Both the position numbers and the translations under genes were made by a program. The notes under the pieces are model-generated. The model did not search any database and was not told where the DNA came from. It saw nothing but the letters and a program-made list of their open reading frames with translations. DNA of 64,000 bases from Arenimonas caeni (GTDB lineage: Bacteria > Pseudomonadota > Gammaproteobacteria > Xanthomonadales > Xanthomonadaceae): assembly GCF_003024235.1 (NCBI RefSeq), contig NZ_KZ679096.1, positions 1 to 64,000 of the forward strand, in the 5' to 3' direction. Of the stretch, positions 8,155 to 42,268 are shown one piece after another. Every line of letters begins with the position of its first letter. The first letter of the stretch is position 1.

Positions 8155-8986
8155 TCAACGCCGAACCAGAGCACCTGATCGCCCGCATCGTGTTGACGTG
8201 GATCCCCACCACCTTCGCCAGCGGATCCTGGTACCCGCCGGCCAGGTTCCAAGCCACCGGAATCCCCCGCTCGCGCAGCCCCGCGAACACCCGCCAATCC
8301 CGCAGCGCCAGCTGCGGCGTGGTGAGGAAGCCGCCCAGCGGGTCGTCCACGTGCGGGTCGGCGCCGGCCTGGTAGAGCACCAGGTCGCAGCCGTCGAGTT
8401 CGGCCAGGTCGCGGGAGATGTTCTCGAGGAAGGCGCGGGCGTCGGCGTGGTGGTGCCAGCGCTCGCCGGCGGTGATGTGCACCAGGCCGGCGCGGCCGAC
8501 GTGCTCCAGGATGTCGTCGGTGCCGTTGCCGTAGTGGTAGTCGTAATCAAGGATGCCCACGCGCAGCCCCGGGCGCTCGGCCTGCAGCACCCGCGCCGCC
8601 ACCATCAGGCCGTTGAATGTGCAGAAGTCGGCGGCCTCATCCCAGCTGGCGTGGTGGAAGCCCGACACCGGCGCCGCCACCGCGCCGCCCGCCTCCAGCG
8701 CCCAGCGCGCGGCGGTGAGCATGGCGCCGCTGGTGTAGGGCAGGCTGGCGACCACGGCGGCGTTGCGGGTGGCGAAGCCGTTGGGCCTGCGCAGCGAGAG
8801 CACGCCGTCGACGAAGTCGGCGTCGTGCGCCAGGCACAGCTGTTCGCGCGTCACCGGCACCGGCGCGCGCACCTGCAGCTGCGACCACGCGGCGAACCAG
8901 GCCGCCATCACCGCGGCCGGCTTGGCGGCGCTGGGCGAGTAGCCCTGCGCCGGGGCGTTGATCAGTTCGCTGTAGACCACGCGCAT
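8081..8986 (-). CDS. Histone deacetylase-like amidohydrolase (acetylpolyamine/HDAC superfamily), 3' end probably frameshifted
   Basis: The 301-residue reading frame has the zinc-dependent deacetylase core: GFHHASWDEA (tandem His), ILDYDYHYGNGT (Asp and His ligands) and YQAGADPHVDDPLGG (Asp ligand), then AGGY. Bacterial members deacetylate acetylpolyamines or other small acetyl-amides. The family-like sequence ends at IHVNTMR. The remaining 25 or so residues are antisense to the end of the LpxR-like gene. Adding one base to the CCC run at 8182-8184 would instead give a short tail ending LWFGVD and a stop at 8151. I therefore suspect a one-base deletion or a sequence error. The start at 8986 is chosen because the fold begins MRVVYSE. 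Confidence 0.82.
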   Translation of the reverse strand: MRVVYSELINAPAQGYSPSAAKPAAVMAAWFAAWSQLQVRAPVPVTREQLCLAHDADFVDGVLSLRRPNGFATRNAAVVASLPYTSGAMLTAARWALEAGGAVAAPVSGFHHASWDEAADFCTFNGLMVAARVLQAERPGLRVGILDYDYHYGNGTDDILEHVGRAGLVHITAGERWHHHADARAFLENISRDLAELDGCDLVLYQAGADPHVDDPLGGFLTTPQLALRDWRVFAGLRERGIPVAWNLAGGYQDPLAKVVGIHVNTMRAIRCSGSALTRGPCSVQSSRRHGVIPAHQTLES

Positions 8987-25094: not shown

Positions 25095-26300
25095 TCAGCC
25101 GCCGACCGGCTGCGGCGGTTTGCCGGGATCCGGGGCAAGCCCCTCCTGTTCAAACAGGATCTGGAATTGGCCAAGGGACTCAGCGACTTCCGGCCATCCT
25201 GCCTTGATGGCGTTGGCCTTCATGCGGGAAAGGACGCCCGGCTCGGCCCGCGGACGCCCTGCCCTGAGCGAGGGCGGCAGGTCCTGGGGGGACATGGCCC
25301 ACGGAAGCAGGCTGCGCCCGGTGGCTGCCGTCTCGGCAGCGATCACCGCCGCGATGCGAAGCCCACCCTCGTCGATATCACCCCAGTGGTAGATGGAAGC
25401 CCGGGCCGGCAAGCCCGCCAGCAGGCAGCGATAAGCGCGGCGCCAGGCAGGTGACGGCATCCCGCCCGAGTAGACCAGCACGAGCGGCAGGTCGGCCCAG
25501 GCTTGCGTCGCCTGGTGGAAGCTCGTCAGGTTCTCGATGCTGACCAGGCAGGGCGCGGTGGTGGTGAATCCTTCGATCGCCCTGGCCGCGACCCCCAGAT
25601 ACGGCCTGGCCAGACGAACACCCTGCGTGGCCAAGATGAGCTCGCCCTCGCCCGCGACCAGCATCGGCTGCGGCTCACGCCGCAGGCCACAGGCCGCCCA
25701 GATGTCATCCCGGGAAAGGCCGGTGGGCGAGACCTCGCCCAAGGCCAGCACTTCCAGCCAGGGCGTCAGTCGCTCGATGCGCTTGCTGTCACCGAACAGA
25801 CGCGTGCTCTCCTGGCGCAGGATACGTTCCTCGCCCGGCACCTGCGCTTCGATCACGCGGACCGCATCGGCGACGTCGTCCAAGGCTTCCGGCCCCCGGC
25901 CACGCACCTTCCGGTTTTCGCGCCACGCCTGGAGGAGCCGGCCGATGACATCAAAGCGGCTGATCGAAGGGGCCAGGCACTTCTCGGCCGCGGCGACCTG
26001 GTCGCCGTGCGGGACGATCCCCAGGTGGGACGCCAGCCTTGCGATGTCGCGAACCTCGATCGACTTCAGCCTCTCGCCGTCGCCGCGAAGCCGGTCGCGA
26101 TCGACGACGATCGCGCCTTCGCGTTCGGCAAGGCGGACCTGCGCCTCGAAGGACTCAAGGTCCTCCAGCGTCGGCAGCGAGGTGTACTCGGGGCAGGACG
26201 CTTCGGTCATCTTCATTCGCACGGGACGGTCGCCGCCGCGCCGATGCGCGGCTTCTGCGCGCCGCAGCAAACGTTCAAGCGCCGTGCGCGCCGGCGTCAT
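25095..26300 (-). CDS. jetD: Wadjet protein JetD (DUF3322/DUF2220, topoisomerase VI-like nuclease)
   Basis: A 401-residue protein with an N-terminal DUF3322-type domain and a C-terminal DUF2220 Toprim-like domain. The metal-binding acidic residues are visible: Glu256 in VSIENLTSF and Asp308/Asp310 in HWGDIDEGGLRI, preceded by VYSGGMPSPAW. In Wadjet, JetD is the nuclease that cuts circular plasmid DNA once the JetABC motor has extruded it. It overlaps jetC by ATGA. Its codon and base use is visibly less GC-rich than that of jetA-jetC, which suggests a separate origin for this gene. Confidence 0.92.
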   Translation of the reverse strand: MTPARTALERLLRRAEAAHRRGGDRPVRMKMTEASCPEYTSLPTLEDLESFEAQVRLAEREGAIVVDRDRLRGDGERLKSIEVRDIARLASHLGIVPHGDQVAAAEKCLAPSISRFDVIGRLLQAWRENRKVRGRGPEALDDVADAVRVIEAQVPGEERILRQESTRLFGDSKRIERLTPWLEVLALGEVSPTGLSRDDIWAACGLRREPQPMLVAGEGELILATQGVRLARPYLGVAARAIEGFTTTAPCLVSIENLTSFHQATQAWADLPLVLVYSGGMPSPAWRRAYRCLLAGLPARASIYHWGDIDEGGLRIAAVIAAETAATGRSLLPWAMSPQDLPPSLRAGRPRAEPGVLSRMKANAIKAGWPEVAESLGQFQILFEQEGLAPDPGKPPQPVGG

Positions 26301-29300
26301 CCCGGGGCGACCTGCGCGGCGATCCGCGCGGCCTCGTCCGCCAGCAACTCCGGGTGCAGGTCGAACTGGTCGCTCTGCAGCAGCGCGCGGCCGGCCTCGG
26401 TGACCTCGATGCGCTCGACCTGCAGCAGGTCGCCGTCGCGGAACAGCTCGAGGTAGCTGTCGAGCACGCCGCTGAGCGTGCCCTGCGCGGTGTCGGGCGC
26501 CGCCAGCACCAGCTGCAGGCCCAGCGAGCGCAGGTAGTTGGTGGTGGCGCGGGCGTTCTGGGCGTCGATCTTGTCGCCGAACTCATCGAGCAGGATCAGG
26601 CCCAGCCCGCCGGACTGGCCCTCGGTCTTGCCGTAGGCGGCGGCCAGGGCCGCGCCGGCGATCACGTACAGCGGCGCACGGTGCTCGCCACCCGAGCCCG
26701 AGCGCATGCGCTCGCTGAGCGTGCCGACCACGCGCTCGTCCTGGCGGATCTGCACTTCGAAGCTGAAGAAACGCCGGTAGTCGTCCAGCGGCGAAGCCAC
26801 CGCGCCCTTGCCGCCGGCGCGCTCCTCGATCACATCGCGGAAGGCCGGAGGCAGCTCGCCGGCACTGCCGAACAGCCCGTCCTCGCCGCCCAGGTCGGCG
26901 GCGCGCTGGATGAAGCGGTGCAGCTCGCGGTACTCCGGCGCCACCTCGTAGTGGAACTGGTAGCGCTCGTTGTTGGAGAACGCCGGGCTGGCGCGCAGCG
27001 TGCGGTTGAGCGTGTTGATCTGCTCGCGCAGCCGGGTGAAGTTGTCGTAAAGCGCCGAGGCCACGTTCGAGCGGAAGGTCTCGACCGCGGTGGAGTAGGC
27101 CTGGTCGGCCTCGCCCTGGTACTGCACCAGTTCGGTATCGCGCAGGCGGGTGAGTTCGCGGTCGAGCACCGCGCGGGCCTCGCGCCAGGCATCGGGGTCG
27201 AAATCCAGCACCAGGCCATGGTCCTTGGCGTACTGGGCCAACTGGCTCCAGGCCTCGGGCAGCGCGCGCGCCAGGGTGGCGTCGGCATCGCGGGCGCGCT
27301 CCTCGCAGCGCTGCCGGCGTTCCTGCAGGCTGGGGTGGCGCTCGTCGAGCTCCTCGCGCTGGCGCTCCACCCGCGCCGGGTCGACGTCGGGATGGGCAAA
27401 GGCGGCGACCGCGCGGCGGGCCGCGCCCTCTTCCTGGGTGCGCAGCGCCTCGAGCAGGGACTCGGCGCGCTGGGCGGCGTCGTTGGCCAGCGCCAGCCGG
27501 CCCGACAGGTCCAGCACCTGCTGGTCGAAGCCGGCGGCCTCGCGCGACAGCGCCTGCACGCGCTCGGCCAGGCGCACCAGGTCGGGGTCGAGCGCCGCTT
27601 CCTGCTGTTCGCGCAGCAGGCGGTAGCGCGCCTCGGCCTGGCGGTGCTGCAGGGCGCGCGCGTGCAGCGCGTCGGCCGCGGCCTCGGGATCGGCCAGCGT
27701 CGCCAGCGCCTGGTGCACGGCCTCGGCGCGCTGCAGCAGCGGCTCGAGCCGGCGCAGGGTGCGTTCGGCGCCGTCGAGCTCGTCGTGCAGCACGCGCAGG
27801 CGGTCGCGGCCGTCGGCGGCGCCGATCTTCAGGTCGCGCGCGGCCGGCAGGCGCAGGCGCTCGATGCCGCCGCCCTTGCTGACCAGGCCGTCGCGGCTGA
27901 GCGCGTGGCGCGTGCGCACCAGCTCGCCTTCGGTTTCCACGCAGGCCATTTCGCCAAGCTGGCGGCGCAGGTAGGCCACGGCGTCGGCGTCCTTGCCCTC
28001 GACCAGCGCGGCGACCGAGCCCGCCGGCGCCGCGTCGGCGCCACGGCCGCGCCGGGCCTGGCTGGCGAGCGCGAGTTTCACGCCGTAGATGGCGTTCGGG
28101 CCCTTGAGCGAACGGTACAGGCGCACCGCCGCCTCCTCGTGTTCGGGCCGCACCAGTAGCGCCTCGACGTGTGGGCGCAGGTAGGCCTCGATCGCCGGCT
28201 GCCAGGCCGGGTCGGCCACGCGCACCAGGTCGCAGACCGGCGTGGCGGGGATGCCGGCGTCCTGCAGCAGGCCGACCAGGCGCATCACGTCCTCGCGCAG
28301 TTCGGCCTGGCCGGCGCTGACGCGCGACTGGTTGCGGCGCGCGGCATCACGCTGCTGGCGCGCCTGCTCCACCGCGGCGTGCAGCTGGCGCGCCTGCGCG
28401 GCCACGGCCACCAGCACCGGCAGGGCGGCGTCGAGCGCGGCGCGCACTTCGCCGTGCAAGGCCTCGGGGGTCCAGGGCAGGTCGGCGTCGGCCGGCAGCG
28501 CGCGCAGCGCGTCGTGCAGCGCCTGCCAGGGCGCCAGCGCGGCGGCGAGCGCCGGTGCGTCCACCGTCGCCAGTTCCAGCGTGGCGGCGGCGCGCAGCTG
28601 GTCGCGCACGAAGCCGACCTGGCGCAGCAGCTCCTGCTTGAGCTGGCCGAGCGTGTCGCGGTCGCGGCCGGCGACCTGGTCGAAGCTGGCCTGCTCGCCG
28701 TAACCGGCGCTGCCCTCGAGCCGCTGGCGCGCGTGTTCGTGCGCCTCGCGGGCACGGTCGCGCTCGGACTTGGCGGCGGCGAGCGCACGCGTGGTGTCGG
28801 CGGCCTGTCGCTGCGCCGCCTCCACCGCCTGGCCGGCGGCGTCGACCTGTTCGCCCAGCTGGTCGCGTTCGTATTCGGCCGCCAGCGCGCGGTACGAGGC
28901 CGAACGCACGGCCTGCGCGGCGACCTTGGCGTACTGCGACTCCACCAGCTCGGCGGCTTCGATGCGGCGCGCCACCTGCTCGATCTTCTCCTTGAGCAGG
29001 CGGAAGGTCTCGAGCACGGCGCGGAAGCGCTGCACGTCGGTGGGCCGGTCCTCGGCCACCAGGGTGCGCACGAAGATGTCCACGTCGTCCACGCGCTGCA
29101 GGTTGAGCGCGTTCTGGAAGGCCTTGCGATAGGCGTTGGCGTCCAGGTGCGCGGTCGGCGACGGCCGCAGGCGGTGCAGCAGGTCCTTCACGAAGCGGTC
29201 GGCGACGGCGTGGAACTCGGCCTTGGTGCCGGCGGCCTTGCAGCGGCGCGCGGCGAGCTCGCGGAAGGCCGGCCAGGCCAGCGGCAGCTGGCGGCCGTCG

Positions 29301-29731
29301 ACGGTCTCGAGGTGGTCTTCGAGCGCCAGGTCCACGCCCGGCAGCAGGTACAGGCCGTGCACGCGGTGCTCGGGCTCGTCGGCCGAGGCGCCGAGCGCCA
29401 CGCCGGCGGTCAGCGGCTCGCCGCTGGCTTCGTCGCGGAACACCAGGCTGATGTAGGTCGTCGCGGTGCGGCGCTTGCGGCCGTCCTCGCCGCTGCGGAA
29501 CACGCCCAGGCAGTAGTCGCGGATGCTGCGCGCGCGGGCGCTGCCGCCGGCCTGGGCGTTGAAGCGGATGCGGCTGCGGTCGGCGCCCAGCAGCACGATC
29601 TGCAGGGCGTCGAGCAGGGCGCTCTTGCCGGCGCCGTTGGGCGCGATGATGGCCGTGGTCGGGTCCAGCGCGAGGCTCTGCGCCTCGAACAGGAAGAACT
29701 GCACCAGGTGGACGCGCTCAAGCCGTTGCAT
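26297..29731 (-). CDS. jetC: Wadjet protein JetC (SMC/MukB-like ATPase)
   Basis: A 1144-residue SMC-type ATPase. Walker A PNGAGKSALLDAL (31-43) is at the N-terminus. Two long Ala/Glu/Arg/Gln coiled-coil regions flank a hinge-like globular part (about 500-660, containing AIYGVKLALA and SRDGLVSKGGGIE). The signature RSGSGGEHRAP (near 1005) and Walker B LILLDEFGDKID (1045-1056) are at the C-terminus. It is the loop-extruding motor of Wadjet, related to MukB. The start overlaps jetB by 14 bases and the stop overlaps jetD by 4. Confidence 0.95.
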   Translation of the reverse strand: MQRLERVHLVQFFLFEAQSLALDPTTAIIAPNGAGKSALLDALQIVLLGADRSRIRFNAQAGGSARARSIRDYCLGVFRSGEDGRKRRTATTYISLVFRDEASGEPLTAGVALGASADEPEHRVHGLYLLPGVDLALEDHLETVDGRQLPLAWPAFRELAARRCKAAGTKAEFHAVADRFVKDLLHRLRPSPTAHLDANAYRKAFQNALNLQRVDDVDIFVRTLVAEDRPTDVQRFRAVLETFRLLKEKIEQVARRIEAAELVESQYAKVAAQAVRSASYRALAAEYERDQLGEQVDAAGQAVEAAQRQAADTTRALAAAKSERDRAREAHEHARQRLEGSAGYGEQASFDQVAGRDRDTLGQLKQELLRQVGFVRDQLRAAATLELATVDAPALAAALAPWQALHDALRALPADADLPWTPEALHGEVRAALDAALPVLVAVAAQARQLHAAVEQARQQRDAARRNQSRVSAGQAELREDVMRLVGLLQDAGIPATPVCDLVRVADPAWQPAIEAYLRPHVEALLVRPEHEEAAVRLYRSLKGPNAIYGVKLALASQARRGRGADAAPAGSVAALVEGKDADAVAYLRRQLGEMACVETEGELVRTRHALSRDGLVSKGGGIERLRLPAARDLKIGAADGRDRLRVLHDELDGAERTLRRLEPLLQRAEAVHQALATLADPEAAADALHARALQHRQAEARYRLLREQQEAALDPDLVRLAERVQALSREAAGFDQQVLDLSGRLALANDAAQRAESLLEALRTQEEGAARRAVAAFAHPDVDPARVERQREELDERHPSLQERRQRCEERARDADATLARALPEAWSQLAQYAKDHGLVLDFDPDAWREARAVLDRELTRLRDTELVQYQGEADQAYSTAVETFRSNVASALYDNFTRLREQINTLNRTLRASPAFSNNERYQFHYEVAPEYRELHRFIQRAADLGGEDGLFGSAGELPPAFRDVIEERAGGKGAVASPLDDYRRFFSFEVQIRQDERVVGTLSERMRSGSGGEHRAPLYVIAGAALAAAYGKTEGQSGGLGLILLDEFGDKIDAQNARATTNYLRSLGLQLVLAAPDTAQGTLSGVLDSYLELFRDGDLLQVERIEVTEAGRALLQSDQFDLHPELLADEAARIAAQVAPG

Positions 29732-30368
29732 CGTCGGCCTCCAGGTCGGTGTCGGCGTCGCCCAGGTCGGCCAGGTCCTCGTCCTCGTCGCGGTTGTGCT
29801 GGTCCAGGCGCTGCAGCCAGGTGGCGCCGACGATCTCGACGATGGCCGGGCGCACCAGCAGGTGGAAGGGCTGCGGGTCGTCGGGCTCGGGCTCGAGCAG
29901 GCGGGCGACGCCCCAGCGGCGCATGGCGCGCAGCAGGCCGCGCAGCTGGCCCACGTCGGGCATCGGCCGCCCGGTCAGCGCGGGATAGGCCTCCTGCAGC
30001 ACGGGCAGTTCGACCAGCACTTCGCCGCCCTCCTCTAGTTCGCCCTGGCGGATGGCCTCGTCATAGCGCTGGCGCAGCACCAGCAGCAGCAGCGTCTCCT
30101 CCAGGCTCACCGGCGTACCCTCGCCATGCGCCGGCAGCGCCACCACGTAGCGGTGGTGTGCGTTGCGCTCGAGCCGGATGCCCAAGGGCGCCAGCGCCGC
30201 GGCGAAATCCTCCAGGTGCGCCTCGACCAGGTGGTAGGCGACGCGGCTGCCGCGGTCGGCGGCATACAGCACCTGCTCGGTGACCAGGCGATAGGCCGCG
30301 CGCTCGAAATCCTGCACGGCGTACAGGCCGTTGGAGAGCTGGCTGAGGGTGTTCCAGTTGCGCTTCAT
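29718..30368 (-). CDS. jetB: Wadjet protein JetB (DUF4194, MukE/KITE-like)
   Basis: A 216-residue protein with winged-helix character and an acidic tail (DEDEDLADLGDADTDLEADD). The order jetA-jetB-jetC and its size match the DUF4194 subunit. In the structure-based view of Wadjet this is the KITE-type (MukE-like) partner that binds the kleisin JetA and the motor JetC. It begins in ATGA overlap with jetA. The segment PVSLEETLLLLVLRQRYDEA is the family's most recognisable part. Confidence 0.9.
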   Translation of the reverse strand: MKRNWNTLSQLSNGLYAVQDFERAAYRLVTEQVLYAADRGSRVAYHLVEAHLEDFAAALAPLGIRLERNAHHRYVVALPAHGEGTPVSLEETLLLLVLRQRYDEAIRQGELEEGGEVLVELPVLQEAYPALTGRPMPDVGQLRGLLRAMRRWGVARLLEPEPDDPQPFHLLVRPAIVEIVGATWLQRLDQHNRDEDEDLADLGDADTDLEADDATA

Positions 30369-31798
30369 GCGGTTTTCCGAAGGCGGTGCAGCACGAAACG
30401 CGGCGCCCGCAGGTAGTCCGAATCACCCGGCTCGCCGGGCAACAGTTCGACCCGGAAGCCGCGCAGCACGCGGCCCAGGGGATCATCGCGGCGCAGGCCG
30501 CCGGGACGCTGGCTGCGCAGGGCGGCCGTCACCAACAGCTGGTAGGCACGGAAGTCACCGATCGAATCGATCGCCATGCCGGTCGATTCGATCCGGTCGC
30601 CCTGGCCGAGGTGGCGGCCGACATAGGCCGCCATGTCTTCCGGCGTCACCAGGCGCGCGCGCTTCATGCGACGCAGCAGCGACAGGCGCGCCAGCTGTTC
30701 GGGCGTGGGCGCCTGCACCTGGTTGGCGCTGCGCGGGATCGGCCGGGCGCGCTGGCGCGGCGGGCGCAGGCGCGTCTCATCCGCCAGCGTCCCGGGCCCC
30801 ACCGGCAGCCGCAGCGCCTCGGGCGCGGCGGCCAGGGCGCCGGCGACGGCACGGCGCAGCAGCACGTCAAGCCGGTCGGGAGCGCGCAGGCGATAGTCGA
30901 GGAAGGCCAGGGCACGGCGGTTGGCCTGCCGGATGTCCTCGTCCAGGCGCGCCAGGTACTCGTCGATGCGCTCGAGTTCCCGAAGGCGGTCGATGGCGCG
31001 CTGGAGGCGCGCCGCGGCGCGGGCGTCGTCGCCGGCCACCAGGTGCTCGCGGTACCAGGCCAGCAGGCGGGCGCGGTGTTCGGTCTCCAGCTGCCGCGCC
31101 ATCGCCAGGATGGCGCCGCGGCGGGCCAGCGGGTGGCCGGCGGCATGCAGATCGGCGTAGTCGCCAATGAAAAAGCGCGAGACGTAGTCCTCGAACAGCT
31201 GGCGGGCGAACTGGGCGGTGGACTCGGCGCGGCTGAGCTCAGGCATCAGGTCGCGCACCTGCAGGCTCATGGCCGCCAGCGCCGACAGCAGCCGGCGCGA
31301 CTGGTCGGCCGCCTCGTCCAGCGCATCGGCGCCGGCACGGCCCTCGACCACCTGCTGCAGCTGCAGCTCGATCGAGCGGATCCGCGCCGAGACGAAGGTC
31401 GGGCCGCGCTCGCTGAACTCGAGCAGCAGCGACATGAGCTGCGACACCACCGGCGACATCGACACCATCTCGCGCACGCCGACGCGCTCCTGGCGGAGCC
31501 AGCCGGCGGCGCGGAAGCGCTCGTAGATGGCCGCGGCGCGCTGGCCGGGCCCGGCGTCGGGCGCCTCGCCGTCCTCCTTCTCCCAGGGGTCGTCGGTGAG
31601 CAGGTAACGCTCGATCGCCGCCGTGATGTCCCGCCGCGGCAGGCCGGTGCTGGGCGGCAAGGGGGCGTCCGGGCCGAAGAATTCGTCGAACAGCCGGCAC
31701 AGAAGCAGCCAGTAGTGCTGCCGGTTGGGCGAGGCCAGCGGGCCGAAGATGCCCGGCGGCACGACCCGGAACAGTGCCGGCGGGGCGGCCGGGGTCAC
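30365..31798 (-). CDS. jetA: Wadjet protein JetA (DUF3375, MukF/kleisin-like)
   Basis: A 477-residue first gene of the operon. The N-terminus ALFRVVPPGIFGPLASPNRQ and the following HYWLLLCRLFDEFF are typical of DUF3375. The middle is helical and rich in Arg/Leu/Ala (kleisin-like), and the C-terminal part has a winged-helix-like segment. JetA links the heads of the JetC dimer. It starts with GTG without a good Shine-Dalgarno, so the exact start is less certain than the frame. A 100-base gap to the preceding cupin gene probably holds the operon promoter. I see only an AT-rich patch at about 31857-31864 there. Confidence 0.9.
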   Translation of the reverse strand: MTPAAPPALFRVVPPGIFGPLASPNRQHYWLLLCRLFDEFFGPDAPLPPSTGLPRRDITAAIERYLLTDDPWEKEDGEAPDAGPGQRAAAIYERFRAAGWLRQERVGVREMVSMSPVVSQLMSLLLEFSERGPTFVSARIRSIELQLQQVVEGRAGADALDEAADQSRRLLSALAAMSLQVRDLMPELSRAESTAQFARQLFEDYVSRFFIGDYADLHAAGHPLARRGAILAMARQLETEHRARLLAWYREHLVAGDDARAAARLQRAIDRLRELERIDEYLARLDEDIRQANRRALAFLDYRLRAPDRLDVLLRRAVAGALAAAPEALRLPVGPGTLADETRLRPPRQRARPIPRSANQVQAPTPEQLARLSLLRRMKRARLVTPEDMAAYVGRHLGQGDRIESTGMAIDSIGDFRAYQLLVTAALRSQRPGGLRRDDPLGRVLRGFRVELLPGEPGDSDYLRAPRFVLHRLRKTA

Positions 31799-31898: not shown

Positions 31899-32582
31899 CT
31901 AGCCGCCGACCCAGGCCCGCAGGCGATCCTCGTCCAGGTGCCCCACTTTCACCAGGATCCGCGCCCCCTCCCGCGTGAACGGCGCATGCCGCGACAAATG
32001 CGGGCTGCGCAGCCAGCTGCCGGCCGGGTAAGCACCGTGCTCGTCCTCGAACACGCCGCTGAGCACCAGGATTTCCTCGCCGCCGAAGTGGGTGTGCGGC
32101 TGGAACACCGTGCCCGGGGCCCAGTCCACCAGCGCGGTGTGTTCGGTGCCGAAGCTGTGCAGGGGCATCACCCGCAGGCCGGGCACCAGGCCGGGGCGCC
32201 ACTCGCCGCGGTCGGTGTCGATGGCCACGGTGGCGTCATCGCCCGGCGCGAACTGGCGCAGCTTCACGAACAGCGTGCAGCCCGGCCCGCTGCGCGGGGC
32301 ATGGCGCGAGCCGTCGGGGTTGCGCAGGTAGCTGCCGGGGCCGAAGTCGCCGCGTTCGTCGCTGAACACGCCCTCGAGCACCAGGATCTCCTCGCCCATC
32401 GGGTGGGCGTGCTCGGGAAAGGCCGAGCCCGGGGCGTAGCGCACCAGGCTGGTGGCGCGCGCCTGTTCGCCGCCGATGCGGTCGAGCAGGCGGCGCTCGA
32501 CCCCGGGGGACGGCGAGGGCTGCCAGGGGGCGTCGTCGGGGCGGACGACGACGCGCTGTTGGAAATCGGCGTTGATGCGCAT
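31899..32582 (-). CDS. Two-domain cupin protein (ChrR-like)
   Basis: A 227-residue protein made of two tandem cupin barrels. The first has FPEHAHPMGEEILVLEGVF then GSYLRNPDGSRHAP. The second has FQPHTHFGGEEILVLSGVF then GSWLRSPHLSRHAP. Each has the His-x-His/Glu/His metal-binding set, so each can hold a metal ion. This resembles the cupin half of ChrR anti-sigma factors, or quercetinase-like proteins, without the sigma-binding zinc domain. It follows the esterase/monooxygenase fusion by 45 bases on the same strand and may share its transcript. Function unknown. Confidence 0.82.
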   Translation of the reverse strand: MRINADFQQRVVVRPDDAPWQPSPSPGVERRLLDRIGGEQARATSLVRYAPGSAFPEHAHPMGEEILVLEGVFSDERGDFGPGSYLRNPDGSRHAPRSGPGCTLFVKLRQFAPGDDATVAIDTDRGEWRPGLVPGLRVMPLHSFGTEHTALVDWAPGTVFQPHTHFGGEEILVLSGVFEDEHGAYPAGSWLRSPHLSRHAPFTREGARILVKVGHLDEDRLRAWVGG

Positions 32583-32627: not shown

Positions 32628-34985
32628 TCAGCAGTCGAACCGGAAGGGCGACCAGCCCAGGCGGCGAAGCCCGGTCACGTATTCGCGCGTATAGCCGGGG
32701 AAGATCGCCACCACCTTGCCGTCGTCCATCCGGTACCAGCTGCGGCACTGCGCCCACACCGAGCGGCCCAGGCGCTCCTGCAGGGCCGCGTTGTGCCCGC
32801 GCATCGCCTCCTCGCGCACTTCGATGGCCTTGTGGCCACCGTCCGCCACCGCGCGCATGCAGGCGATGGCGTGCTGCACCGCCGGCTCGATGTAGAGCAG
32901 CGTGGAGGTGTGGCCGGTGGCGGTGTTCGGGCCCAGCATCAGGTAGAGGTTGGGGAAACCCGCCACGTGGATGCCGTGGAAGGCCTCGGGGCCGTCGCGC
33001 CAGGCCTCGGCCAGGGTGCCGCCGCCGCGCCCGTGCACCTGCAGCGACTGCAGCAGGTGCACGGTGTCGAAACCGGTGGCGCAGACCAGCGCGTCGAGCC
33101 CGATGTCCCGGCCGTCGGCGGTGCGGATGCCGGTGGGCGTGATGCACCCGATGCCCTCGGTCACCAGCTCCGCAGCGGGCCGGCCTCCCGCGGCCTGTGC
33201 GAAAACCGGGTAATAGTCGCTCGCGTAGATGATGCGCTTGCAGCCCAGCGGGTAGTCGGGCTCGAGCTTGCCGCGCAGCGCCGGGTCGGGCAGCTGCACG
33301 CGGCGATGGCGCGCGGCCCACCAGAGCATGAAGCGGCGCATCAGCGTGCCGTCCTGGAAACCGCGGCGGCCGAGCTCGAGGAACCACACCCAGCCGTGGC
33401 GCACGGCCCAGGCATAGGGCGGAAAGCGCGCCAGCCAGCCGTCGAACCAGGAGTAGCGGCGCTCGAGCCGCGGCAGGATCCAGTTCGGCGTGCGCTGGAA
33501 CACATGCAGGCTCGCCGCCTCGCGGGCGATCGGCGGGATCAGCTGCACCGCCGTCGAGCCGGTGCCGATCACGCCCACGCGCTTGCCGGCCAGTGGTGCG
33601 GCGGCGTCCCAGCGGGCGGAGTGCAGCTTCAGGCCCCGGAAGTCGTCGATGCCCGGGATGTCGGGCCAGCGCGGCTGGCTCAGCGGGCCGGTGCTGCAGA
33701 TGAAGTGGCGCGCCACCACGGTGTCGCCGCGGTCGGTGCGCAGGTGCCACAGGCCGGTGGCTTCGTCGTAGCGCGCCTCGGTTAGCCGCGTGCCCAGGCG
33801 CAGGCGCGCCGAGACGCCGTGCCGGTCGGCCAGCGACTGCTGGTAGGCGTGGATCTCGGGCGCGCTGGCGAAGCGCTGGCGCCAGTGCGGATTGGGCGCG
33901 AAGGAAAAGCTGTAGGCCGGCGCCGGCACGTCCACCTGCGCGCCGGGGTAGCGGTTGTCCCACCAGGTACCGCCCAGGCCCTCGGACTGCTCGAGCATCA
34001 CGAAGTCGTGCAGGCCGGCCTTGCGCAGCCCGATGGCGGCGCACAGACCGGACATGCCGGCGCCGAGGATCACGGTGTGGTGGGCCTGGACGTGAGGGGC
34101 TGCGCGATCGAGCACGCGCGCGACGAACCAACCCAGGCGCGCCAGCGCCGCATCCGCCGCCGCCAGCTGGCCGGCATGCAGCTGGAACACGTGCCACAGG
34201 CCCTCGTTGAAGTCGCGCACGACCTCCACGCCTTCGGCCCGCAGCGTTTCCACCAGCGCCTCGCTCTGCGGCCGCAGCAGGTCGTCGCTGCCGAATTGCA
34301 CCAGCGTCGGCGGCAGGCCGCGCAGGTCGGCCAGCAGCGGCGAGACCTTCGGGTTGGCCAGGTTGTCGCCGGCGTAGGCGCGGTGGTTGGCGCGCGCCCA
34401 TCCGGGGCTGAGCATCGCCTCGCCCTTCGGCGGCACCAGCGCGGTCTCTTCGCGCAGGTCGCCCAGCGGCGCCAGCAGCACGAGCGCGGCGGGCGCGGGC
34501 AGCTCCTGTTTGCGAAGCTCGAGGGCCAGCGCGAGCGCCAGCCCGCCGCCGGCGGAATCGCCGGCCACCACGACCGGGCCGCGCGCGGCCAGTTCGCGGT
34601 ACACGGCCAGCGCATCGTCCAGCGCCGCGGGGAAAGGGCATTCGGGCGCCAGCCGGTAGTCCGGCACGTGCACCGGCACGCCGCACTGGCGCGCCAGCCA
34701 GGCGGCCAGCGCGCGGTGCGTGCGCGGCGAGCCGGTGGTGTAGCCGCCGCCGTGCAGGTAGAGCACGGAACCTGCGCGCACCGCCGGCGCGCGGTCGTCG
34801 CGCCAAGACTCCGCGGGGATGCCGGCGATGGACTCGTCGTGTCGGCTGATGCCGCCGGGCAACACGCCGATGCCCGAGAGCGCGTGCATCCAGCGGCGCT
34901 GGAAGGGATAGCCGAAGCGCGGCCCGAGCACGGGCTTGAGCAGCAGGCGCAGTGTGTTGCGAAGCAGGAAGGCAGGCAGGCGCAT
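32628..34985 (-). CDS. Fusion: HSL-type alpha/beta-hydrolase plus type I Baeyer-Villiger monooxygenase
   Basis: A 785-residue bifunctional protein. Residues 1-295 are a hormone-sensitive-lipase family esterase: oxyanion motif HGGG (78-81), nucleophile Ser144 in GDSAG, likely Asp234/235 and His265. Residues about 300-785 are a flavoprotein monooxygenase: FAD motif GAGMSG (308-313), the type I BVMO fingerprint FRGLKLHSARWD (449-460, FxGxxxHxxxWD) and NADPH motif GTGSTA (474-479). A BVMO inserts oxygen next to a ketone to give an ester or lactone, which the esterase could then cleave. The ATG at 34985 is chosen because the hydrolase starts MRLPAFLLRN there. A longer frame upstream is low-complexity. 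Confidence 0.92.
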   Translation of the reverse strand: MRLPAFLLRNTLRLLLKPVLGPRFGYPFQRRWMHALSGIGVLPGGISRHDESIAGIPAESWRDDRAPAVRAGSVLYLHGGGYTTGSPRTHRALAAWLARQCGVPVHVPDYRLAPECPFPAALDDALAVYRELAARGPVVVAGDSAGGGLALALALELRKQELPAPAALVLLAPLGDLREETALVPPKGEAMLSPGWARANHRAYAGDNLANPKVSPLLADLRGLPPTLVQFGSDDLLRPQSEALVETLRAEGVEVVRDFNEGLWHVFQLHAGQLAAADAALARLGWFVARVLDRAAPHVQAHHTVILGAGMSGLCAAIGLRKAGLHDFVMLEQSEGLGGTWWDNRYPGAQVDVPAPAYSFSFAPNPHWRQRFASAPEIHAYQQSLADRHGVSARLRLGTRLTEARYDEATGLWHLRTDRGDTVVARHFICSTGPLSQPRWPDIPGIDDFRGLKLHSARWDAAAPLAGKRVGVIGTGSTAVQLIPPIAREAASLHVFQRTPNWILPRLERRYSWFDGWLARFPPYAWAVRHGWVWFLELGRRGFQDGTLMRRFMLWWAARHRRVQLPDPALRGKLEPDYPLGCKRIIYASDYYPVFAQAAGGRPAAELVTEGIGCITPTGIRTADGRDIGLDALVCATGFDTVHLLQSLQVHGRGGGTLAEAWRDGPEAFHGIHVAGFPNLYLMLGPNTATGHTSTLLYIEPAVQHAIACMRAVADGGHKAIEVREEAMRGHNAALQERLGRSVWAQCRSWYRMDDGKVVAIFPGYTREYVTGLRRLGWSPFRFDC

Positions 34986-35020: not shown

Positions 35021-35542
35021 ATGCAGATGCACGCCACCTACCCACCGCCGCCGGCCATGATGGCGTCGTTCGCCGACGCCGTTTACCGCGTTTACGACCA
35101 GGGCCGCCGCATCGACCTGCGCATCGGCCAGCCCAACCCCGACATGGCTGCGCTGCTGGCACGCTTCGGCGCCAGCCACGGCGGCCTGGTCACCGGCGAA
35201 AACCCTTTCGGCCAGCAGCAGTCCGCCGAAGCCAACGCCGCCGCCAACGCCGAACTGGCCGCGGCCATCGATGCGCTCGGCCTGCCCCGCCTGCCCTCGG
35301 ACGGCGGCAGCGAGGACGGGGCCTGGAACGAACCCGGCTTCCTGGTCGTCGGCGGCGAAGGCCAGCCGGCGGACGCGCTGGCCCGGCGCTTCCGCCAGGC
35401 CGCTTGGGTGCGCATCGAGGCCGACGGCAGCGCGCACCTCGCCGGCTGCGAGTACCCGCTGGCGTCGAGCGGCCTGGAGCCGTGCTGGCCGCCGCAGGTG
35501 TTTCCCGGCCCCGCTGGCGGAACCGGGCCGCAGCCTGCGTAA
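35021..35542 (+). CDS. DUF3293 domain protein
   Basis: A 173-residue cytosolic protein. GENPFGQQQSAEANAAANAEL, a Gly-Leu-Pro segment and EPGFLVVG are the conserved marks of the DUF3293 family, which has no assigned function. ATG 35021 and ATG 35027 are both possible. The gene is divergent from the esterase/monooxygenase fusion with only 35 bases between the starts, so the promoters must overlap. Translation runs to a TAA at 35540-35542. Confidence 0.82.
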   Translation: MQMHATYPPPPAMMASFADAVYRVYDQGRRIDLRIGQPNPDMAALLARFGASHGGLVTGENPFGQQQSAEANAAANAELAAAIDALGLPRLPSDGGSEDGAWNEPGFLVVGGEGQPADALARRFRQAAWVRIEADGSAHLAGCEYPLASSGLEPCWPPQVFPGPAGGTGPQPA

Positions 35543-35571
35543 GGAGGGAATCCCGTCACGGAGGTTCCCCG

Positions 35572-36228
35572 ATGAAGCCGACCCTGCTCGCCCTCGGCCT
35601 GGCCCTTGCCCTTCCCGCCCACGCCGCCGATCGCCTTGCCGACTGGACGCACGGCGAAGCGGGCATCTACACCTACGATCGCGGCGGCCCGGTGAAAGTC
35701 GGCCAGGTGGCCGCGGACGGCACGCTGGTGTTCGAGTGGCCCTCGGCGCCGTCCACGCAACAGACCCTGGCGCGCACCTACCCCTCCTGCCTGGAGGACG
35801 GTTCGCCGATCGCCCGGCCCGGGGCCGCGGAGTTCTGGCCCACCTCGCTGTTCATCGCCACCGACGACTCCGGCGACGAGGAACTGGGCTCACTGCACCT
35901 GGCCACCGCGCCCGGGGTGGTGGCCTGGCAGGCCAGCTACGGCGAGGCGGACGCCGTCGAGGGCGCCTGGTTCCAGTACGTCCACGTGAGCCAGGCGGCG
36001 ACGGTCGAGGCACGATGCGAGATGCCGACCTACACCGGCGAAGGCGAGGATAGCTACGTGCAGGCCACGGAGTTCGCGCTGGCCTTCGAAGCGGGCTGGA
36101 ACCTGGTGCGCAACGACATCACCACGCTGCACGCCGCGCCGTCGGGCCGCAAGCACGCGGCGGGCGTTCGCACCAGCGTCCAGTCCGGACCGGACGCGGA
36201 CGCGAGCTGGCATTTCCGCGCCTACTGA
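35572..36228 (+). CDS. Secreted protein of unknown function
   Basis: A 218-residue precursor with a clean Sec signal peptide (MKPTLLALGLALALPAHAA). The mature domain appears beta-rich (YTYDRGGPVKVGQVAADGTLVFEW) and contains two Cys (PSCLEDG and EARCEMP). It is probably periplasmic. I recognise no family. ATG 35572 is preceded by GGAGGTTCCCCG, a good ribosome site. It lies 29 bases after the DUF3293 gene on the same strand. Confidence 0.75.
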   Translation: MKPTLLALGLALALPAHAADRLADWTHGEAGIYTYDRGGPVKVGQVAADGTLVFEWPSAPSTQQTLARTYPSCLEDGSPIARPGAAEFWPTSLFIATDDSGDEELGSLHLATAPGVVAWQASYGEADAVEGAWFQYVHVSQAATVEARCEMPTYTGEGEDSYVQATEFALAFEAGWNLVRNDITTLHAAPSGRKHAAGVRTSVQSGPDADASWHFRAY

Positions 36229-36237
36229 ACCAGCGCC

Positions 36238-36927
36238 TCAGACCCGGCCGGTCACCGGGATCAGCGCGCCGGTGATGGCGCCGGCCTCGTCGGAAAGCAG
36301 GAAGGCGATGGTCGCGGCCAGCTGCGCGGGCTGCACCCAGGCGCCGAAGTCCGCGTCGGGCATGTCGGCGCGGTTGGCCGGCGTGTCGATGATGCTCGGC
36401 AGCAGCGCATTGACGGTGATGCCGCGCGGCTTGAGCTCCTCGGCCAGGGCTTCGGTCAGGCGCATCACGCCGGCCTTGGAGGCGGCGTAGGCGCCCATGC
36501 CGGCGCCCGCCTTCACCGCGCCGTTGGCGCCGATGTTGATGATGCGGCCGCCATCGGGCAGGTGCGGCAGCGCCGCCTGCGTGGCCGCCACGGCGGTGCG
36601 CAGGTTCATCTGGTAAAGCTTGTCCCAGGTGTCGAGCGAACCGCCCTGCACCTTCTCCCAGGCGAAGCCGCCGGCGATGTTCACCAGGCCGTCGAGGCGG
36701 CTGTGGCGCCGGGCGATGGCGTCGAGGGCAGCAGCCGCCGAAGCGGCGTCGCCCAGGTCCACGCCGCCGTGCAGGCTGGCGGCGCCAAGCGCGGCGGGAT
36801 CGCGCGGCGCATCGGCGCGGTCGATGGCGGCGACGCTGGCGCCGCGCGCCTGCAGCACCTGCACGACGGCGGTGCCGAGCGCGCCGAAGGCGCCGGTGAT
36901 GGCGATGGTCTTGCCGACGAGGGACAT
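36238..36927 (-). CDS. Short-chain dehydrogenase/reductase
   Basis: A 229-residue classical SDR. TGAFGALG is the cofactor motif, NIAGGF the NNAG equivalent, INIGANGA with AYAASKAGV the Ser/Tyr/Lys catalytic set, and LIPVTGRV the C-terminal end. ATG 36927 is supported by CCGGAG 7 bases upstream. A longer frame to 37017 has no such site. Substrate unknown. It converges on the secreted unknown protein with a 9-base gap and is divergent from the CPBP gene. Confidence 0.9.
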   Translation of the reverse strand: MSLVGKTIAITGAFGALGTAVVQVLQARGASVAAIDRADAPRDPAALGAASLHGGVDLGDAASAAAALDAIARRHSRLDGLVNIAGGFAWEKVQGGSLDTWDKLYQMNLRTAVAATQAALPHLPDGGRIINIGANGAVKAGAGMGAYAASKAGVMRLTEALAEELKPRGITVNALLPSIIDTPANRADMPDADFGAWVQPAQLAATIAFLLSDEAGAITGALIPVTGRV

Positions 36928-37772: not shown

Positions 37773-38954
37773 TCAGCCGGCGGGCACGCGCACCGCGCCT
37801 TCCATCAGCACGCGCGCGCTGCGGCTCATGATGGCCTTGCGCACCTGCCACTGGCCGTCCACGTTCGCGGCCTCGGCGCCCACGCGCAGGGTGCCGCTGG
37901 GGTGGCCGAAGCGAACCGCCTGGCGCTCGCCGCCGCCGGCCGCCTCGTTCACCAGCGTGCCGGGGATGGCCGCGGCGGTGCCGATGGCCACGGCGCAGGT
38001 GCCCATCATGGCGTGGTGCAGCTTGCCCATGGACAGCGCGCGCACGCACAGGTCGATGTCGCCGGCGGCGATGCGCTTGCCGCTGCTCACGACGTGGTCG
38101 GTGGGCGGCGCGACGAAGGCGATCTTGGGCGTGTGCTGGCGCTTGCTTGCCTCGGACACATCCCTGATCAGGCCCATGCGCACCGCGCCATGGGCGCGGA
38201 TGGTCTCGAAGCGCGCCAGCGCGGCCGGGTCGCCGTTGATGGCGTCCTGCAGCTCGGTGCCGGTGTAGCCGATGTCCTTCGCGCGCACGAAGATGGTCGG
38301 GATGCCGGAGTTGATCATGGTGGCCTGGAAGCTGCCCACGCCGGGCACCTCGAGGAGGTCAACGAGGTTTCCGGTGGGGAAGAGCGCGCCGCCGTCCTCG
38401 CCCTCGTCGGCCGGGTCCATGAACTCGAGCACGATCTCGGCGGCCGGGAAGGTGACGCCGTCGAGCTCGAAGTCGCCGGTCTCCTGCACCTCGCCGTTGC
38501 TGAGGGGCACGTGGCAGACGATGGTCTTGCCGATGTTGGCCTGCCAGATGCGCACCGGGAACACGCCGTCCTTCGGCAGCCGCGCCGGGTCGATGAAGCC
38601 GTTGGCGATCGCGAACGGGCCCACGGCGGTGCTGAGGTTGCCGCAGTTGCCGGACCAGTCGACGAAGGCGGTGTCGATGGAAACCTGGCCGTACAGATAA
38701 TCCACGTCGTGGCCGGGCTGCGAGCTCCTGGAGATGATCACGCACTTGCTCGTGCTCGACGTGGCGCCGCCCATGCCGTCGGTGTGCTTGCCGTACGGGT
38801 CGGGCGAGCCGATCACGCGCATCAGCAGCGCATCGCGCGCCGGGCCGGGCACGCGTGCGGCCTCGGGCAGGTCTTCGAGGCGGAAGAACACGCCTTTTGA
38901 GGTGCCGCCGCGCATGTAGATGGCGGGGATGCGGAGCTGCGGGGCATGCGACAT
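37773..38954 (-). CDS. prpF: 2-Methylaconitate cis-trans isomerase
   Basis: A 393-residue protein of the PrpF family (DapF-like fold). The start RIPAIYMRGGTSKGVFF, then DGMGGATSSTSKC, and SGNCGNLSTAVGPFAI are family signatures. Lys and Cys of these segments line the active site. PrpF isomerises 2-methyl-trans-aconitate, the product of AcnD, so that the 2-methylcitrate cycle (propionate oxidation) can proceed. It is transcribed in the same direction as acnD, but a YhhN gene is inserted between them. No prpB or prpC is in the window. Confidence 0.95.
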   Translation of the reverse strand: MSHAPQLRIPAIYMRGGTSKGVFFRLEDLPEAARVPGPARDALLMRVIGSPDPYGKHTDGMGGATSSTSKCVIISRSSQPGHDVDYLYGQVSIDTAFVDWSGNCGNLSTAVGPFAIANGFIDPARLPKDGVFPVRIWQANIGKTIVCHVPLSNGEVQETGDFELDGVTFPAAEIVLEFMDPADEGEDGGALFPTGNLVDLLEVPGVGSFQATMINSGIPTIFVRAKDIGYTGTELQDAINGDPAALARFETIRAHGAVRMGLIRDVSEASKRQHTPKIAFVAPPTDHVVSSGKRIAAGDIDLCVRALSMGKLHHAMMGTCAVAIGTAAAIPGTLVNEAAGGGERQAVRFGHPSGTLRVGAEAANVDGQWQVRKAIMSRSARVLMEGAVRVPAG

Positions 38955-38973
38955 GGAAGAAGACTCCGGGAAA

Positions 38974-39630
38974 TCAGGGGGTCGGGGACGCCTGCGCGCG
39001 ATGGCGCAGCAGGCCGAGGGCGATCAGGGTCTGGCCGGTGAAGTAGATGCTGACGATCACCAGCACCGCGTTCGGGAACGGCGCGGCGAACTTGTTCACG
39101 CCGATCAGCGAATCGGCGAGCAGGAACAGCATGGCGCCCAGCCACAGCAGGCGCGGCGCGGCTTCCACCCGGCAGGCCATCACAACCATGCCGAGCAGGC
39201 AGGCGATGTAGACCGACACGTGCACCTGCAGCGCGCCGGCCTTGGGTATCAGCCAGAAGGCCAGCAAGACGCTGTAGACGATCGCGGGCGTCGCCCGCAG
39301 CCAGCGCCAGGGCGAGCCCGCCGCGAGCTTCGCGAACGCGACCAGGAAGGCGATCTGGTTCACCAGGAACGACGCCAGTGCCTGCCGGAACATGCCGTCG
39401 CGCTGCCCGTAGTCGAGGAAGAAATCGCCGGAGGCCGCGGCGACGTAGCCCAGCGCCAGCCAGCGGCCCGCCGCGCCCGGGAAGACCTGCCACATCAGCA
39501 CCGCGAAGATCAGCATCGGCAGCGGCTTGAGCACCCAGCTGCCGGGATACGGCAGCCACGGAATCAGCGCGATGTAGACCAGGCCAAGGCCGATGGCGAG
39601 GGCCATCATCCTGCGTTGCACCGGCGTCAT
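38974..39630 (-). CDS. YhhN-family lysoplasmalogenase-like membrane protein
   Basis: A 218-residue protein with about eight transmembrane helices and the YhhN features: KPLPMLIFAVLMW near the start, the conserved acidic SGDFFLDYG, and LADSLIGVNKF. Human TMEM86B of this family cleaves the vinyl ether of lysoplasmenyl lipids. Bacterial function is less clear. It lies between acnD (28-base gap) and prpF (19-base gap) on the same strand, so it probably shares their mRNA. No functional link to propionate metabolism is known to me. Confidence 0.88.
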   Translation of the reverse strand: MTPVQRRMMALAIGLGLVYIALIPWLPYPGSWVLKPLPMLIFAVLMWQVFPGAAGRWLALGYVAAASGDFFLDYGQRDGMFRQALASFLVNQIAFLVAFAKLAAGSPWRWLRATPAIVYSVLLAFWLIPKAGALQVHVSVYIACLLGMVVMACRVEAAPRLLWLGAMLFLLADSLIGVNKFAAPFPNAVLVIVSIYFTGQTLIALGLLRHRAQASPTP

Positions 39631-39658
39631 CGCGCGTCCTCCTTCCGGAAACAGGGCC

Positions 39659-42268
39659 TCAGGCGGCCTGGGTGGAGGCGAGGAAGTCCTGGGCGAAGCG
39701 CTGCAGCACGCCGCCGGCCTCGTAGATCGAGACTTCCTCGTCGGAGTCGAGGCGGCACTGCACCGGCACTTCGATGCGCTCGCCGTCGCGGCGGTTCACC
39801 ACCAGCGTCAGCGTGGCGCGCGGGGCACGCTCGCCGAGCACGTCGTAGGTTTCGGTGCCGTCCAGACCGAGCGTCTTGCGGGTGGTGCCGGGCAGGAACT
39901 CCAGCGGCAGCACGCCCATGCCGATCAGGTTGGTGCGGTGGATGCGCTCGAAGCCCTCGGCGACGATGGCCTCCACGCCCGCCAGGCGCACGCCCTTGGC
40001 CGCCCAGTCGCGGCTCGAGCCCTGGCCGTAGTCGGCACCGGCGACGATGATCAGCGGCTGGCCGCGATCCATGTAGGTTTCGATCGCTTCCCACATGCGC
40101 ATCACATTGCCTTCCGGCTCCACGCGCGCAAGCGAACCCTGCTTCACCTTGCCGCCTTCGAGCACCATCTCGTTGAACAGCTTGGGGTTGGCGAAGGTGG
40201 CGCGCTGCGCGGTCAGGTGGTCGCCGCGGTGGGTGGCGTAGGAATTGAAGTCTTCTTCCGGCAGGCCCATCTTCGCCAGGTACTCGCCGGCGGCGCTGTC
40301 GGCGAGGATCGCGTTCGAGGGCGAGAGGTGGTCGGTGGTGATGTTGTCGCCCAGCAGCGCCAGCGGGCGCAGGCCCTGCAGCGTGCGCGGCTTGGCCAGC
40401 GCGCCTTCCCAGTAGGGCGGGCGGCGGATGTAGGTACTCATTTCGCGCCAGTCGTACAGCGGGCTCACCTTCGCCGCGCTCTCGACCGCGATCTTGAACA
40501 TCGGCTCGTACACCGCGCGGAACTGCTCGGGCTTCACCGCCGCCTTCACGATCGCGTCGATCTCGGCGTCGCTCGGCCACAGGTCCTTGAGCAGGATGGG
40601 CGTGCCGTCGGCGCGGTGGCCCAGCGCGTCCTTCTCGATATCGAAGCGGATGGTGCCGGCGATGGCATAGGCCACCACCAGCGGCGGCGAGGCCAGGAAG
40701 GCCTGCTTGGCGTAGGGATGGATGCGGCCGTCGAAGTTGCGGTTGCCGCTGAGCACCGCGGTGGCGTAGAGGTCACGCTCGATGATTTCCTGCTGGATCT
40801 TCGGGTCCAGCGCGCCGGACATGCCGTTGCAGGTGGTGCAGGCGAAGGCGACGATGCCGAAGCCCAGCTTCTCAAGCTCGGTCTTCAGGCCCGCTTCCTC
40901 GAGGTAGAGCGCCACGGCCTTCGAGCCCGGCGCCAGCGAGGACTTCACCCAGGGCTTGCGCACCAGGCCCAGTTCATTGGCCTTCCTGGCCAGCAGGCCA
41001 GCGGCGATGACGTTGCGCGGGTTGGAGGTGTTGGTGCACGAGGTGATGGCGGCGATGATCACCGCGCCGTCGGGCATCAGGCCCTCGGCTTCCTGGGCGC
41101 GCGCGGCCTCGAGGTTGCCGGCGATGCCCTTGGCGGCGAGGTCCGTGGTGGCCACGCGCGCATGCGGGTTCGACGGGCCGGCCATGGTGCGCACGACGGA
41201 CGAGAGGTCGAAGTGCAGCGTGCGCTCGTACTGCGCCTTGCCCAGCGAATCGGCCCACAGCCCGGCGGTCTTCGCATAGTTCTCCACCAGCGCCACCTGC
41301 TCGTCGCTGCGGCCGGTCAGGCGCAGGTAGTCGAGGGTGTTGCCGTCGATGAAGAACATCGCCGCGGTCGCGCCGTACTCGGGCGCCATGTTGGAGATGG
41401 TGGCGCGGTCGCCCAGCGTCAGCGCGGCGGCGCCTTCGCCGCGGAATTCGAGCCAGGCGCCCACGACCTTCTGCTTGCGCAGGAACTCGGTGAGCGAGAG
41501 CACGATGTCGGTGGCGGTGATGCCCGGCTGCGGCTTGCCGGTGAGCTCGACGCCGATGATGTCGGGCAGGCGCATCCACGAGGCGCGGCCGAGCATGACG
41601 TTCTCGGCCTCCAGGCCGCCGACGCCGATGGCGATAACGCCCAGCGCATCCACGTGCGGCGTGTGGCTGTCGGTGCCCACACAGGTGTCGGGGAAGGCCA
41701 CGCCGTCCTGCACGTAGATCACCGGCGACATCTTCTCCAGGTTGATCTGGTGCATGATGCCGTTGCCCGGCGGGATCACGTCCACGTTGCGGAACGCGAG
41801 CTTGGTCCAGTCGATGAAGTGGAAGCGGTCGGCGTTGCGGCGATCCTCGATGGCGCGGTTCTTGGTGAACGCATCCGGGTCGAAGCCACCGCACTCGACG
41901 GCCAGCGAGTGGTCGACGATCAGCTGCACCGGCACCACCGGGTTGACCTGGGCCGGGTCGCCACCCTGGTCGGCGATGGCGTCGCGCAGGCCGGCCAGGT
42001 CCACCAGCGCGGTCTGGCCCAGGATGTCGTGGCAGACCACGCGCGCCGGGAACCACGGGAAGTCCATGTCGCGGCGGCGCTCGATGAGCTGGCGCAGCGA
42101 GTCGTCGAGCGTGGCCGGGTCGCAGCGCCGCACCAGGTTCTCGGCCAGCACGCGCGAGGTGTAGGGCAGGCCGTCCCAGGCGCCGGGCTGCAGCGCTTCG
42201 ACCGCCTCGCGGGCGTCGTACCAGTGCAGGGAGGTGCCGGGCAGCGGCTTGCGGTGCTTGGAGTTCAT
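39659..42268 (-). CDS. acnD: 2-Methylcitrate dehydratase, Fe-S dependent (AcnD)
   Basis: An 869-residue aconitase-superfamily enzyme. The 4Fe-4S cysteines are in SCTNTSNP and ACTTCNGMSG, GTDSHTPH is the substrate loop, and the swivel domain has GADYGQGSSRDWA. The N-terminus RKPLPGTSLHWYDAR and the ICxNxxP-free SCTNTSNP site are those of AcnD, not of the housekeeping AcnA (which starts about SFxxLxxG). With PrpF it replaces PrpD by dehydrating 2-methylcitrate. A perfect 10-bp hairpin ends 2 bases upstream of the ATG and there is no Shine-Dalgarno. The gene begins the acnD-yhhN-prpF set. Confidence 0.95.
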   Translation of the reverse strand: MNSKHRKPLPGTSLHWYDAREAVEALQPGAWDGLPYTSRVLAENLVRRCDPATLDDSLRQLIERRRDMDFPWFPARVVCHDILGQTALVDLAGLRDAIADQGGDPAQVNPVVPVQLIVDHSLAVECGGFDPDAFTKNRAIEDRRNADRFHFIDWTKLAFRNVDVIPPGNGIMHQINLEKMSPVIYVQDGVAFPDTCVGTDSHTPHVDALGVIAIGVGGLEAENVMLGRASWMRLPDIIGVELTGKPQPGITATDIVLSLTEFLRKQKVVGAWLEFRGEGAAALTLGDRATISNMAPEYGATAAMFFIDGNTLDYLRLTGRSDEQVALVENYAKTAGLWADSLGKAQYERTLHFDLSSVVRTMAGPSNPHARVATTDLAAKGIAGNLEAARAQEAEGLMPDGAVIIAAITSCTNTSNPRNVIAAGLLARKANELGLVRKPWVKSSLAPGSKAVALYLEEAGLKTELEKLGFGIVAFACTTCNGMSGALDPKIQQEIIERDLYATAVLSGNRNFDGRIHPYAKQAFLASPPLVVAYAIAGTIRFDIEKDALGHRADGTPILLKDLWPSDAEIDAIVKAAVKPEQFRAVYEPMFKIAVESAAKVSPLYDWREMSTYIRRPPYWEGALAKPRTLQGLRPLALLGDNITTDHLSPSNAILADSAAGEYLAKMGLPEEDFNSYATHRGDHLTAQRATFANPKLFNEMVLEGGKVKQGSLARVEPEGNVMRMWEAIETYMDRGQPLIIVAGADYGQGSSRDWAAKGVRLAGVEAIVAEGFERIHRTNLIGMGVLPLEFLPGTTRKTLGLDGTETYDVLGERAPRATLTLVVNRRDGERIEVPVQCRLDSDEEVSIYEAGGVLQRFAQDFLASTQAA

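Follow-up and report, generated by a model that had tools for sequence, protein, structure and literature searches.

The locus described here raises the question of whether two consecutive steps of ketone breakdown can be housed in one bacterial protein, and whether such a protein is peculiar to one genome. The window, meaning the whole stretch of DNA analysed, comprises 64,000 nucleotides of an Arenimonas caeni contig. A first-pass annotation had described one reading frame on its minus strand as an N-terminal HSL-type esterase (HGGG, GDSAG, Ser144) fused to a type I Baeyer-Villiger monooxygenase (BVMO) with the fingerprint FxGxxxHxxxWD, and had suggested that the two together turn a ketone, through an ester, into an alcohol and an acid. 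The coordinates, strand and frame it gave for the fusion were exact. The features of the protein are as follows:

32628–34985 (-): esterase–BVMO fusion CDS, 785 aa, ATG start (ORF translation; same single ORF in ~60 related loci)
34107–34985 (-): HSL/family IV esterase domain, residues 1–293, with N-terminal helices followed by an alpha/beta hydrolase core (Pfam and AF2 model)
34554–34556 (-): catalytic Ser144 in GDSAG (invariant, 43/43 fused homologues)
34284–34286 (-): probable catalytic acid Asp234 (Asp in 42/43; assigned from motif position)
34191–34193 (-): catalytic His265 in WHVF (43/43 fused homologues)
32631–34088 (-): type I BVMO domain, residues 300–785 (best PDB matches PAMO/OTEMO/STMO; AF2 model)
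33930–33974 (-): long BVMO fingerprint GGTWWDNRYPGAQVD, residues 338–352, in which D352 corresponds to PAMO D66 (motif and alignment)
33606–33641 (-): short BVMO fingerprint FRGLKLHSARWD, residues 449–460 (motif and conservation)
33234–33236 (-): catalytic Arg584, corresponding to PAMO R337 (PDB alignment; 43/43)

Integrity and distribution of the fused reading frame

The 785-codon ORF is free of internal stops, and a search of the A. caeni genome returned the fusion protein as the sole match at E <= 0.001. Overlapping unfused esterase and BVMO genes occur elsewhere, so a single indel could mimic a fusion, and we therefore weighed the reading that a frame or assembly artefact joins two genes, which the first-pass annotation had itself named as an outcome that would undo its claim. 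Among the best 80 of 375 relatives from a scan of GTDB genomes, about 60 have both domains in one ORF. Carriers of the fused ORF are found in Arenimonas, Silanimonas, Hydrogenophaga, Rubrivivax, Methyloversatilis, Piscinibacter and Tibeticola, several of the carriers being isolates, and many of the fused relatives are Burkholderiales. More specifically, the same single ORF is present in the independent isolate genomes of A. metalli CF5-1, A. donghaensis DSM 18148, A. malthae CC-JY-1, Tibeticola sediminis DSM 101684 and Rubrivivax albus ICH-3, and the catalytic residues are conserved throughout. This conservation across relatives refutes the artefact, the probability of which we regard as negligible, and it was rejected.

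The BVMO half is the slower of the two to diverge: against the window protein, the fused homologues average 67% identity there and 53% in the esterase half. The interdomain stretch, residues 286–304 in the window protein, ranges from 17 to 48 residues. In the homologue from Arenimonas sp. SCN 70-307, an in-frame palindromic CCCCTCTCCC repeat element lies inside the linker (L033:6883–6984), with further copies of the element just before and just after the gene (5882–5970 and 8431–8481). The variable length of the linker and its tolerance of an insert indicate that a rigid tunnel between the domains is not required.

Active sites of the two halves

Abhydrolase_3 is found by Pfam at residues 74–268 (E 1.7e-51, above cut-off) and encloses an HGGG oxyanion motif at 78–81, in which 38 of 43 relatives have Ala at the fourth position, and a GDSAG nucleophile elbow at 142–146. 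In the AlphaFold2 model of the fusion (mean pLDDT 85.5, pTM 0.87), residues 1–293 superimpose on E40 and EstD11 with Z ~40 and an rmsd of ~2 Å over 288–290 aligned residues. These two bacterial HSL/family IV esterases and a third, Aes72 9izt, share with the esterase half the HGGG and GDSAG motifs, the His, the core fold and the N-terminal helices (Z ~40, 34–38% identity); they are single-domain chains of ~300 residues, whereas the window protein has two domains. Scores against the named NCBIfam HSL subfamilies lay below the curated cut-offs (GESAG 160/430, GTSAG 133/380 and GCSAG 77/410 bits). Pfam, motifs, conservation and model fold all bear out the N-terminal HSL-type esterase: residues 1–293 belong to the HSL/family IV esterases and are predicted to hydrolyse esters.

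In the second half, Pyr_redox_3 and FMO-like FAD/NAD(P)-binding domains score above the Pfam cut-offs from residue 304 onwards, with Rossmann motifs GAGMSG at 308–313 and GTGSTA at 474–479 (A in the last position) and a CATGF motif at 635–639. The FMO-like and Pyr_redox matches are general, and would also suit a flavoprotein that acts mainly as an FMO-like S-/N-oxygenase beside an esterase working separately on unrelated esters. We consider this very improbable, given that 43 homologues retain both BVMO fingerprints as well as D352 and R584, and that all of the best PDB matches are BVMOs. The short fingerprint FxGxxxHxxxW(P/D), already noted in the first-pass annotation, is matched by FRGLKLHSARWD and deviates among the 43 fused proteins only at F449 (Tyr in one) and D460 (Pro in two, Ala in one); the long fingerprint (A/G)GxWxxxx(F/Y)P(G/M)xxxD, which had gone unmentioned, is matched by GGTWWDNRYPGAQVD, with its key positions kept in 43/43. 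A phmmer alignment with PAMO places R584 on R337, K583 on K336, R498/T499 on R217/T218 and D352 on D66, all PAMO residues of well-known role, with R498, T499 and K583 as the NADPH residues. The 43 aligned fused proteins show no variation at S144, H265, R498, T499, K583 or R584, or at the key positions of the long fingerprint.

Residues 296–784 of the model align with PAMO (4d03) over 470 residues with Z ~36. PAMO, OTEMO, STMO and CHMO have in common with the BVMO half the FAD/NADPH Rossmann motifs, both fingerprints, the R337 and D66 equivalents and the fold (Z ~36), at ~30% identity, and the solved BVMOs align solely to residues 290–785 of the fusion, leaving the esterase half unmatched. The NCBIfam equivalog for PtlE neopentalenolactone D synthase scored 202 of 1100 bits, below the curated cut-off. 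The stretch from residue ~300 to 785 is a type I BVMO, predicted to convert a ketone to an ester.

Predicted reaction and gene neighbourhood

From these features we consider it likely that the protein is a bifunctional enzyme that depends on NADPH and O2 and cleaves ketones, taking a ketone to an ester and the ester to an alcohol and an acid in one chain. The C-terminal FAD-dependent type I BVMO would use NADPH and O2 to insert oxygen beside the ketone carbonyl, yielding an ester (or lactone), and the N-terminal HSL-type serine esterase would split this product by hydrolysis, giving an alcohol plus a carboxylic acid (or a hydroxy acid). The ketone would probably be provided from a secondary alcohol by an SDR, the gene for which lies just upstream of the fusion in several Arenimonas. 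The fusion itself would most likely keep the two activities in 1:1 dosage and let a labile or inhibitory ester be captured locally. We infer both catalytic activities, as well as the action of the esterase on the product of its own BVMO. The one-chain reading is supported by two complete conserved active sites, the folds, a conserved neighbourhood within Arenimonas and repeated independent fusion.

The same two steps are known from unfused systems. In the sad cluster of Acinetobacter, a separate BVMO and esterase convert a ketone to an ester and then to an alcohol and an acid (PMC12753306); in T. oleivorans, TOL_0709/TOL_0906 are separate proteins to which both steps were assigned by inference from proteomics (PMC6304351); and in bisphenol F degradation, BpfC/BpfD of Sphingobium are a separate BVMO and esterase or hydrolase (PMC12724174). 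Each of these pathways employs two proteins, whereas the window holds one ORF that may still work alike. Together with the conserved active sites and the recurrent fusions and gene pairs, these precedents lend good support to the reaction logic suggested in the first-pass annotation.

Two variants of the predicted reaction were weighed. The nearest solved BVMOs include OTEMO, STMO and CHMO, which would suit a cyclic ketone, with the BVMO forming a lactone and the esterase acting as a lactonase to give a hydroxy acid. This is unlikely, since identity to OTEMO/STMO/CHMO is only ~30%, much like that to PAMO, and HSL esterases act mostly on linear short-chain esters. The other variant places the esterase upstream, where it would free a secondary alcohol from an ester for oxidation by the SDR to the ketone, which the BVMO would then oxidise, the new ester being handled elsewhere. 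An SDR does adjoin the pair in several loci, and HSL esterases are broadly specific; however, fusions without any conserved neighbour are common and the esterase comes after the BVMO in the known pathways, and we judge this order of events decidedly improbable.

The neighbouring genes that bear on the ketone-cleaving reading are:

31899–32582 (-): ChrR-type bicupin, 45 bp downstream of the fusion (Cupin_7 twice in Pfam; match to 3o14)
36238–36927 (-): FabG-like SDR, candidate alcohol dehydrogenase, upstream of the fusion (profile matches, locus comparison)

The order SDR–fusion–bicupin recurs in Arenimonas and is nearly contiguous in three loci (L036, L039 and L098); in A. malthae, among others, there is hardly a gap between the SDR and the fusion. 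Of 10 Arenimonas loci, 9 contain the bicupin; six of these have it near the fusion and three at a distance of 1.6–2.6 kb, and only in some is it directly adjacent. Almost all of the bicupin aligns with the ChrR-like 3o14, and the anti-sigma domain is missing. A ChrR-type double cupin that adjoins the fusion in only some Arenimonas loci lends no support to the earlier suggestion of a part in handling a downstream product, and a role as a dioxygenase was rejected, the best PDB relative being a ChrR-type protein and not an oxygenase.

In the window, two small ORFs on the plus strand (35022–36228) separate the SDR from the fusion; they are poorly conserved and confined to the nearest relatives, neither has a Pfam match, and the second begins with a signal-peptide-like stretch. 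The tRNA-Ala that ARAGORN places within the SDR CDS (36781–36872 (-)) is probably a false positive. Also nearby are PrpF and an aconitase-family gene (37773–42268 (-)), probably part of a methylcitrate cluster, of which prpF (37773–38954) remains near the fusion throughout Arenimonas. Propionate as a product, hinted at by these methylcitrate-type genes, was set aside: the synteny is that of one genus only, and here an opposite-strand gene intervenes. Nor is there support for an alkane as the source of the ketone, as the A. caeni genome gave no match to P450 and no clear AlkB, its two FA_desaturase-family matches resembling desaturases (histidine motifs judged by eye). Just downstream, the window carries a complete Wadjet-type set (25095–31798 (-)):

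25095–26300 (-): JetD-like
26297–29731 (-): SMC-like JetC
29718–30368 (-): DUF4194 JetB
30365–31798 (-): JetA

Outside Arenimonas the neighbourhood of the fusion is not conserved, the neighbours in Burkholderiales being scattered and mostly unrelated, so that the substrate cannot be read from context. This lack of conserved neighbours suits a self-contained enzyme.

Recurrence of the esterase–BVMO pairing

Profile searches distinguish four fusion lineages: N1, the family of the window protein; N2 (L171–173); N3 (L174–176); and C1, in which the order is reversed and the BVMO precedes the esterase, found in Burkholderia glumae (L031) and in L155, L160, L166 and L167. The B. glumae fusion lies on plasmids behind genes for an aldehyde dehydrogenase and a GMC oxidoreductase, an arrangement that fits oxidation of the released alcohol. 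The long fingerprint reads GGTW(F/Y)WNRYPGARCD in N3, which is PAMO/CHMO-like, and GGTWDLFRYPGVRSD in N2, a form that we take to be that of EthA/AlmA; such differences among lineages indicate that different BVMO subclasses have been used. A tree of the BVMO domain separates the fusion lineages, and the grouping of N1 and C1 as one clade is rejected on this domain (p-AU 7.6e-5). In the esterase tree C1, N2 and N3 each form one well-supported clade, apart from N1. By this phylogenetic evidence, fusion has produced the pairing on at least four occasions, in three lineages with an N-terminal and one with a C-terminal esterase.

Profile searches of the loci also revealed unfused neighbouring esterase and BVMO genes in both orders. 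In a phylum-wide sample, 12 of the 29 best BVMO loci were fused to (1) or next to (11) an esterase of the HSL family, rough counts taken within flanks of 1.5 kb and for no more than the best few matches per genome. In Methylobacterium (L032) and in L178 the stop codon of the esterase gene overlaps the start codon of the BVMO gene (GTGA-type), and in L013 it is the end of the BVMO gene that runs into a possible esterase start, suggesting that from such coupled pairs only a small indel is needed for fusion. We tentatively propose, with slightly less than even confidence, that these proteins form a convergent ketone-cleaving class in which tethering itself has been selected, for capturing the product or relieving inhibition by the ester, with at least four origins, probably from overlapping pairs, in both orders and with different BVMO subclasses.

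In the open-licence literature we found no published description of a natural BVMO–esterase fusion, and a paper may exist elsewhere. Both halves belong to known families; what is new is that they form one chain and that this architecture has originated repeatedly. ALDH–ADH gene fusions are reported as convergent fusions of pathway-adjacent enzymes (PMC12454647) and parallel the esterase–BVMO case with different enzymes. Cascades of a BVMO and an esterase are used in biocatalysis and have been proposed for breakdown of oxidised polyethylene and alkanes, usually with separate enzymes; natural one-chain versions of several origins and both orders would be ready-made catalysts. Moreover, the unfused close relatives would serve as natural controls in a clean test of whether flux gains from the tethering of sequential enzymes.

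Such unfused relatives include stand-alone BVMOs, their ORFs devoid of an esterase domain, that are 54–65% identical to the BVMO half of the window protein (L087, L088, L090, L091, L094–L096, L100–L103, L105–L107, L111 and L112). Part of this set (within L087–L112) is nested in the N1 clade of the BVMO tree without an esterase, suggesting that the esterase is dispensable for some relatives. One N1-clade member (L099:5905–8287) carries the esterase and the BVMO as two overlapping ORFs, either a natural split or a frameshifted assembly. We read the esterase-free BVMOs and this split locus within N1 as probable loss or fission; the tree alone does not distinguish loss from gain.
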